DNA from: Candidatus Bathyarchaeota archaeon
GTDB taxonomy: Archaea; Thermoproteota; Bathyarchaeia; Bathyarchaeales; Bathycorpusculaceae
NCBI GenBank assembly: GCA_937873375.1
Contig: CALMWK010000163.1
Location: 1 to 53,889, forward strand
Length of the DNA stretch: 53,889 bases
Direction: 5' to 3'
The stretch's first letter is position 1. The number at the start of each line of letters is the position of its first letter. Under the pieces are notes generated by a model. The model saw nothing but the letters and a program-made list of their open reading frames with translations. It was not told the origin of the DNA and did not search any database. Below, one piece after another: positions 417 through 52,395 of the stretch. The translations under genes were made by a program, and so were the position numbers.

Positions 417-690
417 CTATAGCCCCCTTATTTATAGAATTTATGTTGACGGTTTTTGACCTCTGATAGGACCCTATAGTTTTGACCTGCCCCTTCCTCC
501 TGCCCGTTTTCAGAATCCCAGAGATAACAGAACTTGACCCTTAGTAGGGTACCCTACGTTTCAGCTACCCCCTCCCCCTACCCTTTTTTGAAAACCCCAA
601 TTTAAGCCCATTTTTTAATTCAGGGTTTAGATTTGGTTTGTTCCGCGGCTGGGAAAGGCATAGAAAGGCTGGAAACGGCGCAGTTCGGCT
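417..690 (+). repeat. Dispersed intergenic C-rich repeat, copy A (core motif 417-442; units about 445-520 and 533-690)
   Basis: Shares 'GTTGACGGTTTTTGACCTCTGATAGGACCCTA' with 37981-38016 (reverse strand) and 'TTGACCCTTAGTAGG..CTACGTTT' plus 'CTACCCCCTCCCCCTACCCTTTTTTGAAAACCCCAATTTAAGCCC...AGGGTTTAGAT' with 49313-49640. Confidence 0.75.
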
Positions 691-6410: not shown

Positions 6411-6484
6411 ATCCTAATTTGTATCTTTCTTTGTTTAGGTATCAGAAAGACGCAGGGGAAGGAGTAGTCAAAAGGATAGGCGTC

Positions 6485-7369
6485 CTACTGAGGGTCAGCA
6501 GGCTTTTTTTGTTTGGCTAAGCTTAAAGTGATAACGCCTATCACAATCAGGATTCCGCCCGCAAGCTGATTTACCGTGGGAGTCAACGCCAAAACAGCGA
6601 AAGAGAATATCGCCGTCAAAAACGGCTCCGCAGTGCGAATTGACGCAACTTTGGACACTTCATAGACTTCCAGTGCCTTAAAAAACAAAATAAACCCCAA
6701 AAATCCACCCGTGAAAGCGCCTACAATCGCATAGGCAAACGCAACCGTTGGAATCGCAACCTGCAGTTTCCCAAACAGAAAGGCATAAGCAAAAAGGAAT
6801 AAAAACTCAAAAAGGGCGTTGCCACCAGCCAAACTAAGCGGATTAATATTTTTGACGTAAACTTTCGAAATCAAATTTGAAGAAGCAAACAACACCGCTG
6901 CACACAAAACCGCGACTGTGCTGACAAGTTCCACATCAAAATGTCCATACGCCAAAACAAACACCCCCACCACCGCAGCAACAACTCCTAATCCCTCCTG
7001 CCGCGTGAACCGCTCCTTCAAAAACACCACACCAAACAGTATGGTGAAAACTGCTGTGAACTGAAGCAGAAAACCCGCGTTCACAGGACCCGCAAGCAAA
7101 AGCCCATAAGTATAAAGCAAGAAACCGGCGGTGCCAAGCAACCCCAGCAAACTCAGCTTCTTCCAATTCCTAAAAAGAACCACCAAATAGTGACGTTTTT
7201 TGGCGAGAACAAAAAATAACATGAAAAACACGCTGGAAAAACCTGACAACACAACATTCATAGTTTCAAAATTAACCAACTCAAGAACCAGCACCATAAG
7301 GACGGGAAGAAAACCTAACATAAGGCTGGTCAGAACAGAAAACGAAACGCCTTTACGTTTATCACTCAT
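6485..7369 (-). CDS. EamA/DMT-family transporter
   Basis: Ten hydrophobic segments; two EamA-like repeats (YTYGLLLAGPVNAGFLLQFTAVFTILFGVVFLKERFT). Confidence 0.88.
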   Translation of the reverse strand: MSDKRKGVSFSVLTSLMLGFLPVLMVLVLELVNFETMNVVLSGFSSVFFMLFFVLAKKRHYLVVLFRNWKKLSLLGLLGTAGFLLYTYGLLLAGPVNAGFLLQFTAVFTILFGVVFLKERFTRQEGLGVVAAVVGVFVLAYGHFDVELVSTVAVLCAAVLFASSNLISKVYVKNINPLSLAGGNALFEFLFLFAYAFLFGKLQVAIPTVAFAYAIVGAFTGGFLGFILFFKALEVYEVSKVASIRTAEPFLTAIFSFAVLALTPTVNQLAGGILIVIGVITLSLAKQKKPADPQ

Positions 7370-17247: not shown

Positions 17248-20200
17248 TCAAGATTGAATCTGATAGTTAATTTGACCGTTTTTGTTTGCCTTCGGAATCG
17301 TCATCACGAATTTTGCGCCTTCGCCCGGTTTGCCTGTTTCTTGGATTTGCCAGCCGTAAACCTCAGTCATCTTCCTAATCAGGAACAGACCAAAGCCTGT
17401 GCTGCCGCCTGTGCTAAAGCCTTCCTTGAAAAGGTTTGACTTATTCTCTTCAGTTATGCCTACACCATCGTCTTCATAGACCAATCGTAAGCTGTCCTGA
17501 CCTTCATCTTCAAAGTAGACTCTTATGGTTGTTGTTTTTTTGCCGTATTTTCTTGTGTTGTCGATGAAATTGAAGAATAGCTGCCGTAGAAATGAATCTG
17601 CAAGAACAGTTAAGCCATGGCAATCATTGACTACTTTGATTGTTAAACCAGAAAAAAGTGAAGCTGCTTCGTTTGCCGCTTTCTCCACGTTAACATAGGT
17701 CAAGTCTTCAGCACCTAGTTGCTCGTACATTTTGGCGAACTCAAAAATCTTCACTGAGTCCTTAACAGCCTGCTCAATCTTGCCAAGCCCATCTATTATG
17801 TCGGCTTGATCTGCATGCTTCTTTTTCAGCAAATACGCATAACCAGTCGCCGCAGTGAGCTTGTTGCGAACATCATGCCTCGTCAACCCGCCAACCACAC
17901 GCAATTTCTCATTCATTATGGCAATTCTTTCGCTGTTTTCTTCGAGTTTCTCCTCAGCTTTCTTGCGCTCCGAAATGTCTGCTACCAACGCAAGTGTACC
18001 AACGCTGTTTCCTTCATCATCTTTAATAGGTGAAGCAGCTACACTTGCATAGATGCGGGTTCCGTCTTGGCGAGTAAAAACAAACTCACATTGGCTTTGA
18101 GTGCCGAGTTTGCAGCCCTCCAAATTGCTCGTAGCAAATTCTTTATACTGTGTATCCATGAATGCGCCTAAATCCTGTCCGATCATTTCGCCTTCAGTGT
18201 ACCCCAGCATCTCTGCCATGCGAGGGTTAACAAAAACTGTCTTGTAGCTATTGTCCAGTGCCCAAACACCCTCATGTGCAAGCTCAACCAACATACGGTA
18301 TTTTGTTTCGCTTTCCATCAAAGCCGCCTCTACTCTCTTAGCTTCCGTCACATCTCGATATATGCTGTAAAGAAACGTCTTTCCAGATAGCGCAATCGCC
18401 TGCGAAATAATTACGACATCTCTAACGTCGCCGTTTTTGGTGCGGTGTTTAGTTTCCCATTCAGCTTTGCCCACACGCAATATCTTATCTATCCTATCTC
18501 GGGTTTCAAGGGGAGTTTCGTCGGCTTTATAGTCGTAGATGCTACGTTTTGCAAATTCTTCTCTGGAATAACCTAGCTGCTTGTGGGCTTCTTCATTGAA
18601 TTCAACAGGAACCCCAGTTTGGGGGTCAATAATTAAGACACCCAATGGGGTCTGATCAAATAGGGCGTGGTAGCGTCTTTCTGCTTGTTGAATTTGTGTT
18701 TCCATTTGTTTTCTTTCGGTAATGTCTCTGGCTACGTGAATTATCACTGTCTTGCCTTCGGGATTTTTCACAGGGCGAGCCGAGACTTCCACGATTCGCT
18801 GATTGTTGTTTTCGTCAAGATGGATATGCTCAACCGTCACGGGTTTGTCAGTTTCTAGCACTTCTCGAATTGGACAAATATCATTTGGAGGTTGACAGGG
18901 AGCAGATCTGTGGTGCGTCATTTCATAGCATGTTTTTCCAACAGCATCTTCTTTTTTCAGCTTCATCTGCTTTAGTGCTGCTTCATTGACAGTGATTATC
19001 TTATAGTCGTCAGGGTCAATCACTAAAAGAGCATCGCCAAGAGAGTTAATTATTCTTTCATCAAACGCCTTCAAATTCCTCAAATTTTCTGAGGCTTTCG
19101 CGCGTTCGGTTATGTCGCGTATAGACCCTACTACGCCTATAGTGTTGCCTGCTCCATCCGTAACCTTTTGCCTAACCGTAGAGTAAACCCTGTCGCCAAC
19201 TGTCTCATCCGCAGAAACAAACCCCGATTGCAGCGCCTTCATGTCAGCTTCGTTACAGACCTGAGCGGCTTCCTTAGGCAATAGTTCAAAATCTGATTTG
19301 CCAATAGCTTCTCCGGGTTTTAGTCCAAGAAACTGTTCCAACGCCCTGTTGGCTGCAACATATTTCAAGGTTTTATCTTTGAAAAAGACAAGATCAGGCA
19401 AAGAGTTGAAAACGTGTCTAAGTTGCTCTTCACTTTCCTTTAGCACTTCGGTTTTTTTGCGTTCGGTGATATCTCGCGCTAAAGCAATTACTAATGTTTC
19501 TTCGTCAAAAATTATAGAACTTAGAGTTACCTCTATTGGAAATACGTTTTTGTCCTTACGTTTTTGGGTGCTCTCGAAACTAACAGATCCCCCCGCAAGC
19601 ACCTTAGCCCAAATGTCGCCTCGCGCCACATCTTTGTCCGCGACAGGAGAAATATCGGGTATATTCATTGAAAGCAGTTCTTCTTTAGTGTACCCCAGAC
19701 TTTCACACGCTTTCTGATTCACATCAACAATTTGACCGTTTGCATCGTGAACAAAAATTGCTTCTGCTGCCTGCTCCATAAGAGTGCGATAACGTCTTTC
19801 GCTCTCCTCTAACGCAGATTTTGTTTTAGCTCTTTCCGTGGCTAAGCGTATGCCGTGTGCGAGTTCTCCGTAGACGGTTTCTGTTGAACCTTGCTTGTTA
19901 TGATACCCGTCGGCTCCAAGATTTAGAGCTTTTATGGCGACTTCTTCACGTCCCTTCCCCGTAAACAAAATAAACGGAACATCAACATTTTTTTCCTTTA
20001 ACTCCCCCAAAAAATCCAAACCATTCTTCCCAGGCATCTCATAATCAGAAACAACAACATCAAAACCACCATCCGCCAACTTTTGAAAAGCCACATCAAC
20101 CGAAGTTACCGTTTCAACCTCAAATGGGCCTTCCCCTTCAAGTATTTCTTTTGAAATCTCCAAAAAAGAAAAATCATCATCAACGTGTAAAACGCGAATA

Positions 20201-20256
20201 CCACCAGAATTATCAGAAACCTTCAAATTAGTCATGGGTAATGCCCTCCCCTCCAC
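17248..20256 (-). CDS. REC-multiPAS sensor histidine kinase
   Basis: N-terminal receiver VLHVDDDFSFLEI..VVSDYEMPGKNG..FTGKGREEVAIKALNLGADGY; several PAS repeats (..DITERK); H-box GGLTRHDVRNKL; ATPase DDGVGITEENK..GFGLFLIRK. Confidence 0.93.
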   Translation of the reverse strand: MEGRALPMTNLKVSDNSGGIRVLHVDDDFSFLEISKEILEGEGPFEVETVTSVDVAFQKLADGGFDVVVSDYEMPGKNGLDFLGELKEKNVDVPFILFTGKGREEVAIKALNLGADGYHNKQGSTETVYGELAHGIRLATERAKTKSALEESERRYRTLMEQAAEAIFVHDANGQIVDVNQKACESLGYTKEELLSMNIPDISPVADKDVARGDIWAKVLAGGSVSFESTQKRKDKNVFPIEVTLSSIIFDEETLVIALARDITERKKTEVLKESEEQLRHVFNSLPDLVFFKDKTLKYVAANRALEQFLGLKPGEAIGKSDFELLPKEAAQVCNEADMKALQSGFVSADETVGDRVYSTVRQKVTDGAGNTIGVVGSIRDITERAKASENLRNLKAFDERIINSLGDALLVIDPDDYKIITVNEAALKQMKLKKEDAVGKTCYEMTHHRSAPCQPPNDICPIREVLETDKPVTVEHIHLDENNNQRIVEVSARPVKNPEGKTVIIHVARDITERKQMETQIQQAERRYHALFDQTPLGVLIIDPQTGVPVEFNEEAHKQLGYSREEFAKRSIYDYKADETPLETRDRIDKILRVGKAEWETKHRTKNGDVRDVVIISQAIALSGKTFLYSIYRDVTEAKRVEAALMESETKYRMLVELAHEGVWALDNSYKTVFVNPRMAEMLGYTEGEMIGQDLGAFMDTQYKEFATSNLEGCKLGTQSQCEFVFTRQDGTRIYASVAASPIKDDEGNSVGTLALVADISERKKAEEKLEENSERIAIMNEKLRVVGGLTRHDVRNKLTAATGYAYLLKKKHADQADIIDGLGKIEQAVKDSVKIFEFAKMYEQLGAEDLTYVNVEKAANEAASLFSGLTIKVVNDCHGLTVLADSFLRQLFFNFIDNTRKYGKKTTTIRVYFEDEGQDSLRLVYEDDGVGITEENKSNLFKEGFSTGGSTGFGLFLIRKMTEVYGWQIQETGKPGEGAKFVMTIPKANKNGQINYQIQS

Positions 20257-20966: not shown

Positions 20967-21311
20967 ACGATTATGCTTATGCTACAAGGTTTCCGTGTTC
21001 GGAATATTTATGGGTTTTGCGCACATCTAAACAGAAAAACCGCGATTGTGCAAGTTGCAGTGAAACAGGGGTTCACTTAGAAATTTACTCTATAAATAGA
21101 GGGGGGTATGGTTTGTGAGAGCAGCAGAGCTTTTAGCGGTTTTAGGCATCTTGAAGCACAGAATCTGCTTGTTGCTGGTTGCACAACCAAGGCACAACCA
21201 AACAGCGCCCAAACCAAACCCCTTCACCAAAACAGCGCAAACAGCTCAACGCCTAAGAAGTAGATGTGTATAGCAACCAAACAACAACTACAACTAAACA
21301 ACTTTTGAAGA

Positions 21312-34575: not shown

Positions 34576-34600
34576 CTCCTATATATTAAGGGGGCTATAG
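34576..34600 (-). repeat. Dispersed TATA/C-run core motif, copy 3
   Basis: Reverse complement CTATAGCCCCCTTAATATATAGGAG matches copy 1 CTATAGCCCCCTTATTTATAGAATTT. Confidence 0.6.
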
Positions 34601-34732
34601 TCTTTGCCAAGCAACAGCGTACACAAACAGCAACGTTGCATCTCGTACGTCCAAAATTTCCTTGCCCAGAAGAGTTAATAACAGAGAACAAGACCTTTAA
34701 AATTGAGAATCTTCTCACGGTTTTGACACAAC

Positions 34733-36917: not shown

Positions 36918-37877
36918 ATGAAGCAGATGAGCACTCATTACTCGGTTCAACTAATCAGTCCCGAAGAAAAAGACAGCCTCTACGAAAACTACGAAAATAG
37001 GTTCCTATACACCAACAAGGCTGACATCTACGGCTGCTGCATCAAACTGATCACAGATGTGGAACGCATAAAAAACGAGTGGGAAGACAATTTTTACACC
37101 ATGGACGAACACACGCGTTCACATGGCAGACTTGTCGTACTGGAAGAGCCAAAGCAACCGGCAAACACTATCAAGTATGACCCTTACACAAAAACCGCGT
37201 TTCTCATAAACGTGGACTATTACGGCTGGATAAAAAGCATAGCCCTAGCCGTTGCAGGTGACGTTCTTGAAGATGAACACCAGATATATTCAGTTCACGG
37301 AGCAGCCATAGACGTAGGCTCCACAGGCATCTCCATCATAGCACCCAGCGGCACAGGCAAAACCACCCATTCCTGGGGACTACTGCGGCTTCCGAATGGA
37401 CGATTGGTTTCGGATGACTGGTACTTTGTGCGACTCAGCAGCCGTGAACCTTTAGCTTTCGGCTCAGAAAAAAACTGTTACATAGAAGCAGATATTGGCA
37501 AAATCTGGAACGAATATGAACGACTTGTGGACAAGGCAACGTTTGACCAGAAAGGCCGCGCAGTTGTGAACGTACGCTGGATTGTCGGCGCAGGCGGAGT
37601 AATCCCGATGACAACCATGAAAACAGTTATTCTGCTTAAACGAGATTTCCAAGACCCAAACATTGTTACCCCTTTAGGCGCCGATGAAGCCGTGGACTAC
37701 CTTTTAGCAAATGACTTCTGCAACCCCCACCAACTCGTAAAAGACAAACGAAAAACCGCGCTCAGGAAAGAGTTCTTCCGCAAACTTTTCAAGAAAACCG
37801 ACGTTTACCTCGTAAACACCACAGGAACACCACAAGAAACGCAGACTGAAATCAGGGCACTTGTTGTAACAGAATAA
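36918..37877 (+). CDS. HPr kinase/PEPCK-like P-loop protein
   Basis: YSVHGAAIDVGSTGISIIAPSGTGKTTHSWGLLRLPNGRLVSDDWYFV: P-loop preceded by HG and followed by a SDD motif, as in the HprK-like fold. Confidence 0.75.
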   Translation: MKQMSTHYSVQLISPEEKDSLYENYENRFLYTNKADIYGCCIKLITDVERIKNEWEDNFYTMDEHTRSHGRLVVLEEPKQPANTIKYDPYTKTAFLINVDYYGWIKSIALAVAGDVLEDEHQIYSVHGAAIDVGSTGISIIAPSGTGKTTHSWGLLRLPNGRLVSDDWYFVRLSSREPLAFGSEKNCYIEADIGKIWNEYERLVDKATFDQKGRAVVNVRWIVGAGGVIPMTTMKTVILLKRDFQDPNIVTPLGADEAVDYLLANDFCNPHQLVKDKRKTALRKEFFRKLFKKTDVYLVNTTGTPQETQTEIRALVVTE

Positions 37878-37949: not shown

Positions 37950-38061
37950 AAAAACCGAGGGGGGAGGGGGTAGAGAAAACGTAGGGTACCTATCAGAGGT
38001 CAAAAACGTTAACATCGGTTTTCTGAAAAGTTGTAGGGGAAATTCTATAAAAGGAGCTATC
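37950..38061 (-). repeat. Dispersed intergenic C-rich repeat, copy C (core motif 38041-38061)
   Basis: Reverse complement TTTTATAGAATTT...GATGTTAACGTTTTTGACCTCTGATAGGTACCCTACGTTTTCTCTACCCCCTCCCCCCTCGG; matches 430-520 and 544-575. Confidence 0.7.
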
Positions 38062-45739: not shown

Positions 45740-45764
45740 CTATACCCCCCTCTATTTGTAGATT
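45740..45764 (+). repeat. Dispersed TATA/C-run core motif, copy 5
   Basis: CTATACCCCCCTCTATTTGTAGATT, matching the other copies. Confidence 0.6.
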
Positions 45765-45924
45765 AAAGGGAGCCGTGAACTTTGGGTTCTTTGGATTCGG
45801 TCTTAGGGAGGCAACTACGACTCGGAGCTTTTCTTTTTTTTAAGCCACCCAATTTTCATCGCGCTTTATGCGTGGAAAGTTATAAATTAGTAAAGTTCCC
45901 CTGTGAAACAGCAGTTGAGCGGTC

Positions 45925-49312: not shown

Positions 49313-49640
49313 AATTTGACCCTTAGTAGGATAGCTACGTTTTAGGCCTGCCTCTATACCCTACGTTTTTTGCTTGGCCCCTCGCTCTGCAGCTACCTAC
49401 CCCCCTCTATAAATAGAGTCAACTGCGGCGTAGACTACAAATTTACTGCGAGTAGCCTTTTCTTGCTCTGCGGGTATCCCCACTCCCTTCTCTAAAGAAG
49501 GAAATTTTACCTCTGAGTGGTCTCTATCTCTTTCATCTAACCCCTCCTCCTACCTTTTTGAAAAAACCAATTTACGCCCCTTTTCGGTTTTAGGGTTTGG
49601 ATTTTTGTTAGTCCACGGTAGGAAAAGGCAAGATTTGGCG
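49313..49640 (+). repeat. Dispersed intergenic C-rich repeat, copy B (core motif 49394-49418 inside an extra internal segment)
   Basis: TTGACCCTTAGTAGGATAGCTACGTTTT and CTAACCCCTCCTCCTACCTTTTTGAAAAAACCAATTTACGCCCCTTTTCGGTTTTAGGGTTTGGATTTTTGTTAGTCCACGGTAGGAAAAGGCA align with 533-660. Confidence 0.75.
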
Positions 49641-49926
49641 CACTCCAATCTTGAATCATGCACTCGCCCTCGTTTTCGGCAACGGTTAGGCGCAAACGTG
49701 ATTGGGGTGAGGTATTTCTTGGAGTTTGTGGATGGTAACTCTTGAGAAAATCAGCCCCTTTTCGGAAGATATTTTTAGAATTTGTGTGGTTTACCAAAAA
49801 GTAGATTCTCAGTATTCACCCGAATAGAATCTCTGTTTCTTATTGCAGAATACTCGTGTGTATTTTGAATTCACAACCTTCTATAATTGCTGTTTTAAGT
49901 ATTTATCAGCAGGGGCGAATTGTAGC

Positions 49927-52395
49927 ATGGCTAATTTGAAGTCTACTGATGACAGGTCTATTCGTGTTTTGCATGTTGACGACAGCTCAGACTTTTTGAA
50001 GGTTTCCAAGCAGCTTCTGACGTTGATGGGCAACTTTGAGGTTGACCACGCCCTCTGTGTAGACGAAGCCTTCCAAAAACTAGAGAAACAAAAGTATGAT
50101 GTGGTTGTTTCTGACTATGAAATGCCCAAAAAAGGCGGCTTAGAATTTTTAAGCGAGCTTCGGGAACAAAACAATCATATTCCCTTTGTCTTGTTTACGG
50201 GAAAAAGTAGAGAAGAAGTAGCCATAAAAGCGCTAAATCTGGGCGCAGACGGATACATAAACAAGCAAGGCTCAACAGAAACCGTCTATGGAGAATTGGC
50301 GCATACTCTTGAGTTAGTCAATGATCGCAAGAGAGCTGAAATTGCCTTAAGAAAAAGCGAGTCACACTATCGCCTAATAGCAGAAAATGCGCGTGACGTG
50401 ATTTGGACGATGGATTTAGATGGCCACTTCACTTACGTTAGCCCATCTGTTTTTCAGCTCAGGGGCTACACTCCAGAAGAGGTATTGCAGCAGTCCATGA
50501 TGGACGCATTAACTCCCGACTCTGCACGAGTAATTCTTGAAGGCTTTCAGCGTTTTTGGGAAACAGGAGCAATTGCTTCAAACTATTATGAAGTAGAGCA
50601 GCCTTGTAAGGATGGCTCAACTGTTTGGACCGAGGTTAATTTTACTGTTTTTCGGGATAAAGATGGAAAACCGGAATCAATCTTGGGCGTGAGCCGTGAC
50701 ATAACTGAGCACAAGAAAGCTGAAGAGGAGTTGAGAAAAGAAAGGCAGGAACTTGACTATGTTATAGATTCTTCGCCAATCATAATTTTCTATAAAGATA
50801 AAGAAGGAAAATTCGTACGCGTTAACAAAGCATTTGCTGAAGCACTCCAAATACCCCCAGAAGAATTCGTGGGAAAAACAGTTTTTGACTTTTATTCAAC
50901 CAAGGTTGCGCAAGGCATGACAGATGACGACTTTGAAGTTTTAGAATCTGGGCATCCCAAGCTGGGAATAATAGAGCTATACGAATCCGCAAGTGGATTG
51001 AGATGGGTGCAGACAGATAAGGTTCCGGTTTTTGACGAAAAGGGCTTTGTAGTTGGTTTGGTAGGCTTTGCACAGGACATCACCGAACGCAAACAAGCAG
51101 AGAAAGAACAGGAGATTCTGGCTGGCTTTCTAAACATAGTCAACAGAAATACCCAGCTTGAGGGTCTAATTAAGGCCACAGTTGCCTTCTTGAAGGAGCA
51201 ATCTGGCTGCGAAGCAGTAGGTATCCGCTTAAAACGTGGAGATGATTTTCCCTACTATGAAGTAAACGGATTCCCCGACGAGTTTATCAAATCGGAGAAC
51301 AGTCTGTGCGCCAAAGGCTCGGAGGGCGAAACCTTGCGTGACAGTACAGGTAACCCCGTGTTAGAGTGCATGTGTGGAAACGTAATTCGCGGACGCTTTG
51401 ACCCCACAAAAGAATGCTTCACAAAATTTGGCAGTTTCTGGGCAAACAGCACTACCAAACTCTTAGCTACAGCATCAGATGAGGCTCGTCAAGGGCGGAC
51501 ACGTAACCGATGCAACAGTGCAGGCTACGAATCCGTCGCGTTGATTCCCCTGAAAACCAAAACCCAAAATGTGGGTCTTATACAGTTAAATGACCCTCGA
51601 GAAGGAATGTTCTCTTTGGAAACCATTTCTTTATGGGAGCGGGTATCATCGGAGTTTGCTTTGGCTTTGGACAGGTCTTTGTCTGAAGCTGCTTTAAAGC
51701 AAAGTGAGAAGTGTGCACAAGAAACCACAAGGAAACTGGCGGTGGCCAATGAAAAGCTGCATGTTGTGGGTGGCTTGACTAGGCATGATGTTGGCAACAA
51801 GCTTACGGTTATAAAATCTAACATGTACCTGCTAAAAAGACAAATAGGTAACAATTCTGAAGTAGACAAATTCATTAGGGAAATTGATCGGGCAATTAGT
51901 GACGCAGGTAGGCTTTTTGAGTTCAGCTGTCTGTACGAGAAAATCGGGTCTGAAAAGCCAATAAACATCAACGTAGAAGATTGTTTTAACGAGGCAGCAG
52001 GGTTTTTCGCTGATTTTAGTGCAGTCAAATTTGTGAACGCATCTGCAGGGTTAGTTGTTGCTGCTGACTCGTTGCTCAGACAGCTCTTTTACAACCTTAT
52101 TGAGAACACACTGAAGCATGGCGAAAAAGTAACTGAGATAAAGCTTAGCTTCAAAAAAGAAGGCGATTGTGTGAAGTTGGTTTACGAAGACGACGGTGTA
52201 GGAGTCCCTGAAGCTAATAAGTCACGGATTTTTCAAGTTTTCTCTTCGGGTAGGGGGTCGGGGTTAGGTTTGAAGTTTGTGAGCAGGATGCTGGAAGTTT
52301 ACGGGTGGAAAATAATTGAAGAAGGCACGCCAGGAAAAGGCGCAAAATTCGTAATTTCCATCCCAAAAAAATCTGTTTGCCAAGAAAACTCATAG
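49927..52395 (+). CDS. REC-PAS-PAS-GAF-like sensor histidine kinase
   Basis: Receiver VLHVDDSSDFLKV..VVSDYEMPKKGG; two PAS repeats; Cys-rich GAF-like segment; H-box GGLTRHDVGNKL; ATPase DDGVGVPEANK..GSGLGLKFVS. Confidence 0.92.
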   Translation: MANLKSTDDRSIRVLHVDDSSDFLKVSKQLLTLMGNFEVDHALCVDEAFQKLEKQKYDVVVSDYEMPKKGGLEFLSELREQNNHIPFVLFTGKSREEVAIKALNLGADGYINKQGSTETVYGELAHTLELVNDRKRAEIALRKSESHYRLIAENARDVIWTMDLDGHFTYVSPSVFQLRGYTPEEVLQQSMMDALTPDSARVILEGFQRFWETGAIASNYYEVEQPCKDGSTVWTEVNFTVFRDKDGKPESILGVSRDITEHKKAEEELRKERQELDYVIDSSPIIIFYKDKEGKFVRVNKAFAEALQIPPEEFVGKTVFDFYSTKVAQGMTDDDFEVLESGHPKLGIIELYESASGLRWVQTDKVPVFDEKGFVVGLVGFAQDITERKQAEKEQEILAGFLNIVNRNTQLEGLIKATVAFLKEQSGCEAVGIRLKRGDDFPYYEVNGFPDEFIKSENSLCAKGSEGETLRDSTGNPVLECMCGNVIRGRFDPTKECFTKFGSFWANSTTKLLATASDEARQGRTRNRCNSAGYESVALIPLKTKTQNVGLIQLNDPREGMFSLETISLWERVSSEFALALDRSLSEAALKQSEKCAQETTRKLAVANEKLHVVGGLTRHDVGNKLTVIKSNMYLLKRQIGNNSEVDKFIREIDRAISDAGRLFEFSCLYEKIGSEKPININVEDCFNEAAGFFADFSAVKFVNASAGLVVAADSLLRQLFYNLIENTLKHGEKVTEIKLSFKKEGDCVKLVYEDDGVGVPEANKSRIFQVFSSGRGSGLGLKFVSRMLEVYGWKIIEEGTPGKGAKFVISIPKKSVCQENS

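Follow-up and report, generated by a model that had tools for sequence, protein, structure and literature searches.

A modular, dispersed non-coding repeat in a Bathyarchaeota genome, with positions shared between species and differing modules at those positions

A modular, polar and non-coding repeat is dispersed through the genome of a Candidatus Bathyarchaeota archaeon, and a near-complete copy of it lies at positions 405 to about 700 of the 53,889-nucleotide stretch analyzed here (contig CALMWK010000163.1; the window). Copies in related species often share both gene end and orientation, and they differ in the modules that they contain. We read the focal stretch as a composite miniature element of probable mobile origin with a BOX-like organization, whose copies are refreshed by recombination, and we give this reading about an even chance of being right.

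The focal copy has the composition M1-M2-M3-M5, with all modules on the forward strand. The 5' end module M1 (GCTCGGAGCAAACTATAGCCCCCTTATTTATAGAATTTA) occupies 405-443 (nhmmer E = 2e-12), and its similarity sets in slightly earlier, at about 398. Two paralogous C-rich units follow, M2 (TTGACCTCTGATAGGACCCTATAGTTTTGACC...) at 456-510 (E = 8e-13) and M3 (TTGACCCTTAGTAGGGTACCCTACG...) at 534-588 (E = 1e-14). The copy is completed at 590-665 by M5 (E = 6e-22), which alternates with a second 3' end, M4, among the copies. The initial annotation had described two successive units within 417-690. Both units were recovered and a copy is present there, but it is longer, starting with M1 at about 398-405 and ending with the tail of M5 at about 665-700. 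This tail, from 660 to about 700, carries the degenerate words AAAGGC, TTCGGC and TTTGGC at a spacing of about 10 bases. Tails beyond M5 are alike in other copies, and the number of words varies from copy to copy.

The kinship proposed earlier with two other parts of the window holds as well. The stretch at 37981-38016 on the reverse strand corresponds to an M3 unit at 37960-38003 (reverse strand, 41 bits, E = 6e-11), after which a degenerate M1-like stretch is seen in the sequence at about 38035-38055. The matches at 49313-49342 and 49536-49640 belong to a third copy on the forward strand, which consists of M2 at 49316-49371 (E = 4e-6), M6 at 49381-49436 (E = 3e-17), a second M2-type unit at 49508-49559 (E = 1e-5) and an M5 3' end at 49560-49629 (E = 1e-16). 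The count of three sites was too low even for the window. Besides the M6 of the third copy, it had missed an isolated M3-type unit at 6455-6497 (E = 6e-6), an isolated M6 at 21071-21130 (E = 2e-8) and an isolated M1 at 34579-34612 (E = 8e-8), all on the reverse strand, and a weak partial M6 on the forward strand at 45742-45780 (E = 0.003 only). The latter contains a 26-nucleotide inverted match to 21084-21109 (92% identity).

All six congeners have the gene adjoining the focal copy (42-368), at 83-88% identity. Upstream of this gene their genomes showed no element, bar a weak stretch resembling M6 in G001, possibly a TATA box. Because the upstream neighbor differs in the congeners, they provide no clean empty site for the focal copy, and the failure to recover such a site counts against a mobile origin. 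The lack of an element beside the orthologues of this gene, together with the different neighbor, makes the focal copy appear lineage-specific and located at a synteny break.

A search of the assembly with a 230-base query from the focal copy gave 42 matches, the best non-self match having 90% identity and E = 2.8e-55, so chance likeness is excluded. When queries from other copies and three sequence-only profiles were added, about 108 distinct intergenic sites were counted on 72 contigs of the 2.0-Mb, 164-contig assembly, which confirms the earlier proposal of a dispersed intergenic repeat family. At least five sites stand at contig starts, where a repeat that interrupts assembly would be expected. 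Two M5-bearing copies on different contigs (L107 on C21 and L122 on C61) have more than 100 bp of host flank in common, including a gene start, which suggests that a segment was duplicated or that the element mediated ectopic recombination.

When 74 sites and their flanks were annotated with profiles, the modules showed a fixed order: M1 at the 5' end, then M2/M3, M8, M6 and M7, and finally M4 or M5 at the 3' end. The end modules are fixed in their places, and copies vary in which modules are present and in the number of middle modules. Within one copy all modules are co-oriented, two weak calls excepted. Copies are about 40-330 bp long, intergenic and without coding capacity. In L136 the gene upstream of the M2-M5 copy takes its stop codon from the element, an observation in favor of the composite mobile reading. 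The M2/M3 units have the layout TTGACC..TAGG..CCTA..CTACCCC(C/T)TCCCCCTAC..TTTT. M4 has the core sequence CTATTAGGCTCCAAATATG and terminates in ..CTAATAGGCTCCAAATATGA; its 3' boundary is sharp, with information at background about 9 bases past CAAATATGA. The core of M6, TACCCCCCTCTATAAATAGA, is an invariant stretch that is mostly identical in 20 of 20 copies.

This organization resembles that of BOX elements in Streptococcus pneumoniae and S. suis, which are composite intergenic repeats of one 5' module, a variable middle and one 3' module, with alternative end modules (boxE and boxF) in S. suis and many dispersed copies in a 2-Mb genome (PMC3049150). The archaeal element likewise has a 5' module, a variable middle, alternative 3' ends and many dispersed copies. 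About half of BOX insertions are common to strains, and stem-loops are predicted for them (PMC3049150). In contrast, the archaeal element has no predicted stem-loop or consensus structure (z about 0 in 49 copies), its middle is composed of several modules (M2/M3, M8, M6 and M7) whereas that of BOX is mainly boxB, and its positions are common to species, with modules exchanged there. By analogy, the element would work like a BOX-type composite repeat, a likeness in organization; a search for a described family into which it fits found none.

The modules differ in how widely they occur. Across 60 related genomes, the M2/M3 profile had 76 matches in this species versus 0-7 elsewhere, and the M6 profile had 43 here and 15 in one congener. 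Named genomes searched with the M3 core pattern gave nothing outside, and phage and plasmid collections gave zero matches to the element. M4 extends further: its profile found 52, 33, 44, 42 and 75 copies in five of the six congeners, 0 in the sixth (G004), and 31, 59 and 98 copies in three other genera. In these other genera, M4-terminated elements have an M1-type start and different middles made up of internal M4-type units and M8; M1-type ends are also present in G030, G007 and G019. Of 165 genomes from the order, 48 contain a 19-bp core of M4, and a control with the reversed pattern gave 0 hits. Within one other genus, 9 of 32 species have this core in 1 to 116 copies and 23 have none. A genome of another family (G058) contains it 53 times, and the copy inspected there is recognizable only over the 19-20-base core. 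M5 was absent from every locus fetched from relatives, these loci having been sampled through M4.

Two local variants were seen among the relatives. In G030, several elements (L221, L228, L231, L232, L233 and L234) are followed just after M4 by an inverted repeat, GTCAAGAAATCTTGAC, which often recurs nearby and has the look of another repeat, specific to this species and joined to the element. In G003 (L260), G005 (L281) and G006 (L327), a sub-family shows conservation that extends beyond M4 into the flanks (ATTCAACAGTTGCAG ... CCCCTCARAAACTA); its G005 and G006 copies are orthologous, and the G003 copy adjoins another gene.

For the 74 sites of this species and the element loci of two congeners, G006 (59) and G005 (31), we compared the flanking genes. 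In 26 of the 29 cases in which an orthologous gene adjoins an element in both genomes (12 of 14, 1 of 2 and 13 of 13), the gene end and the orientation of the element agree, where independent placement would give about 25%. These numbers come from mostly draft assemblies, from relatives sampled by way of M4, and in part from orthologies supported by a single flank. The concordant comparisons represent 25 distinct element pairs, and at the site shared by L327 and L281 both flanks support the assignment. A freely jumping element would not show such frequent agreement in place and orientation between sister species.

The content of these shared positions is a different matter. Copies at shared positions are barely more alike than random cross-species pairs, with a likeness of 0.75 versus 0.70 between G006 and G005 and 0.65 versus 0.64 between G000 and G006. 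The copies have species-diagnostic ends, and each species has a diagnostic sequence of its own, for example AGGCTCCAAATATGA in this species and AGCATCCAAATAGG in G006. Whole modules differ too: the shared positions hold M8-M4 in G006, an M3-like unit with M4 in G005, and M2/M3 units in this species. Six shared sites (L104, L120, L123, L136, L159 and L109) have M4 in G006 or G005 and M5 here. At the pair L129/L275, M4 is better conserved than the adjoining intergenic sequence, and its boundary matches to the base between alignable flanks. STAR elements of staphylococci, whose copies are direct repeats with spacers, are reported to have locations that are not conserved between species (PMC3532100). 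They share with the archaeal element an interspersed intergenic placement, lineage-specific sequence and uneven abundance between species, and they differ from it in that its locations are partly conserved and its modules are unlike each other.

The composite element of mobile origin accommodates these observations in two steps. Copies would first have spread in trans through an enzyme recognizing the conserved asymmetric 3' end (CTAWTAGGMTCCAAATATG); the module grammar, the abundance and the uneven presence fit a BOX-like element that spread in this way. Later, other copies of the same genome would have replaced the content of resident ones through recombination or gene conversion, so that the position is inherited and the content refreshed. 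Inherited positions with replaced content fit such ectopic recombination or gene conversion between copies. The positional conservation across species exceeds what is expected of an active mobile element, and selection could be its cause. More tentatively, and with some doubt, we suggest that these are genomic landmarks whose positions outlast a species, with sequence sub-type and even whole modules rewritten in each one. Such dispersed non-coding elements would be an archaeal instance of concerted evolution, with either gene conversion between copies or a co-evolving DNA-binding protein specific to the 19-bp core as the driving force.

The chief rival, possible but in our judgment rather doubtful, is that the repeat is a landmark of host-functional DNA in which M4, possibly together with M1 and the C-rich units, serves as the binding site of a sequence-specific chromosomal or regulatory protein. 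If the protein and all its sites drifted together in each species, shared positions with species-specific sequence would result. The 25 element pairs with common gene end and orientation, the better conservation of M4 than of its surroundings in L129/L275, the 19-bp core conserved between families and the invariant stretch of M6 all speak for such a landmark. However, presence is very uneven, and the total absence from sister species (G004 and the 23 species without the core) means that the element is at least dispensable. The swaps of whole modules also go beyond what a drifting binding motif needs. Gene contexts are mixed, and orientation relative to the neighboring genes is not fixed, since all four arrangements occur: the element is opposite to both neighbors in 22 cases, co-oriented with both in 18, between converging genes in 14 and between diverging genes in 9. 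The same lack of a fixed orientation argues against a role as terminator, promoter or leader, and an intrinsic terminator or promoter element was rejected on these grounds. Copies that retain M1 start about 2-107 bp from the 3' end of a co-oriented gene in 7 cases versus 1-2 opposite ones, too few for certainty.

We consider it unlikely that the copies are a classical family of MITEs or insertion-sequence ends, that is, deletion derivatives of a still-active autonomous insertion sequence that jump by recognition of terminal inverted repeats. The sharp 3' boundary of M4, the high copy number, the uneven distribution and recent copies of high identity are in its favor. Archaeal MITEs, such as SM1-SM4 of Sulfolobus, typically have terminal inverted repeats, target duplications and an autonomous mobilizing element (PMC10969869). 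The repeat resembles them in being short, non-coding and present in tens of copies per archaeal genome, but none of these other features was found here. The best terminal inverted word, TTGGAGC, was not significant against shuffles (p = 0.19). At seven M1+M4 sites the longest shared word was 4.7 versus 4.5 in the control, hence no target-site duplication was detected, with ends uncertain by several bases. No hairpin structure was found, neither a transposase nor an autonomous copy was seen in the fetched loci, and many positions are common to several species. A non-autonomous mobile element, as the initial annotation had also considered, stands as the best broad class, but the terminal inverted repeats and target duplications that define a MITE were looked for and not found. 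A tyrosine recombinase gene (Phage_integrase, PF00589; 2-1117 of L129, reverse strand) is separated by about 105 bp from a copy that consists of M4 alone, and the arrangement recurs in G006 (L294) with 79-80% identity. This recombinase was rejected as the mobilizer because no more than 5 of 61 genomes have it and most of the element-rich ones do not.

Still less probable is repeated independent insertion at preferred sites, by which the shared positions would be directional hot spots instead of inherited copies. Different modules at the same site in different species, and the near-random likeness of orthologously placed copies, are as such insertion would leave them. It would nevertheless need specificity for site and orientation at many unrelated gene ends, while the overall gene orientation is not fixed, and the base-exact M4 boundary with alignable flanks in L129/L275 also opposes it.

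The T-runs at the ends of units and the short palindromes inside them (TAGGGTACCCTA) bring to mind a riboswitch-like leader, a transcription terminator or another structured RNA family. Such a reading is very hard to credit given the variable gene orientation, the zero pairs predicted by RNAalifold and the lack of covariation in M2/M3 and M4 (M6 has 4 invariant pairs only), folding energies that match dinucleotide-preserving shuffles for either strand (mean z of 0.10 and 0.07 over 49 copies), and the absence of a credible Rfam match for the element. The window does contain an archaeal SRP RNA (Archaea_SRP), which marks the organism as an archaeon. The earlier suggestion of a REP-like repeat fares no better. 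REPs are imperfect palindromes that alternate in orientation within BIMEs (PMC2817692, PMC3116915). The archaeal element is also dispersed, short, extragenic and composite, as are REP/BIME and REPIN repeats, but its modules are not hairpins, it has no palindromic unit, and each copy keeps a single orientation. Since no RNA structure, significant terminal inverted repeat, target duplication or match in Rfam, phages and plasmids was found, neither a structured RNA nor a REP element nor a textbook MITE is supported.

Composite intergenic repeats are familiar from bacteria (BOX, BIME, NIME), and no published archaeal counterpart with such a module grammar was found in open full texts. Different modules at the same place and orientation offer a natural system in which to study the homogenization of dispersed repeats in an archaeal chromosome, and the conserved 19-bp core is a concrete bait for a protein that moves or binds the element.

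Two further features of the window were observed. Two large genes, at 17248-20256 (reverse strand) and 49843-52395 (forward strand), have in common a 207-nucleotide inverted stretch (19856-20062 and 50097-50303) with 75% identity; the product of the latter gene is a response-regulator, PAS and histidine-kinase protein. The predicted protein of 36918-37877, adjoining the copy at 38 kb, has a weak likeness to HPr(Ser) kinase / PEP carboxykinase, with model scores far under the curated cut-offs.
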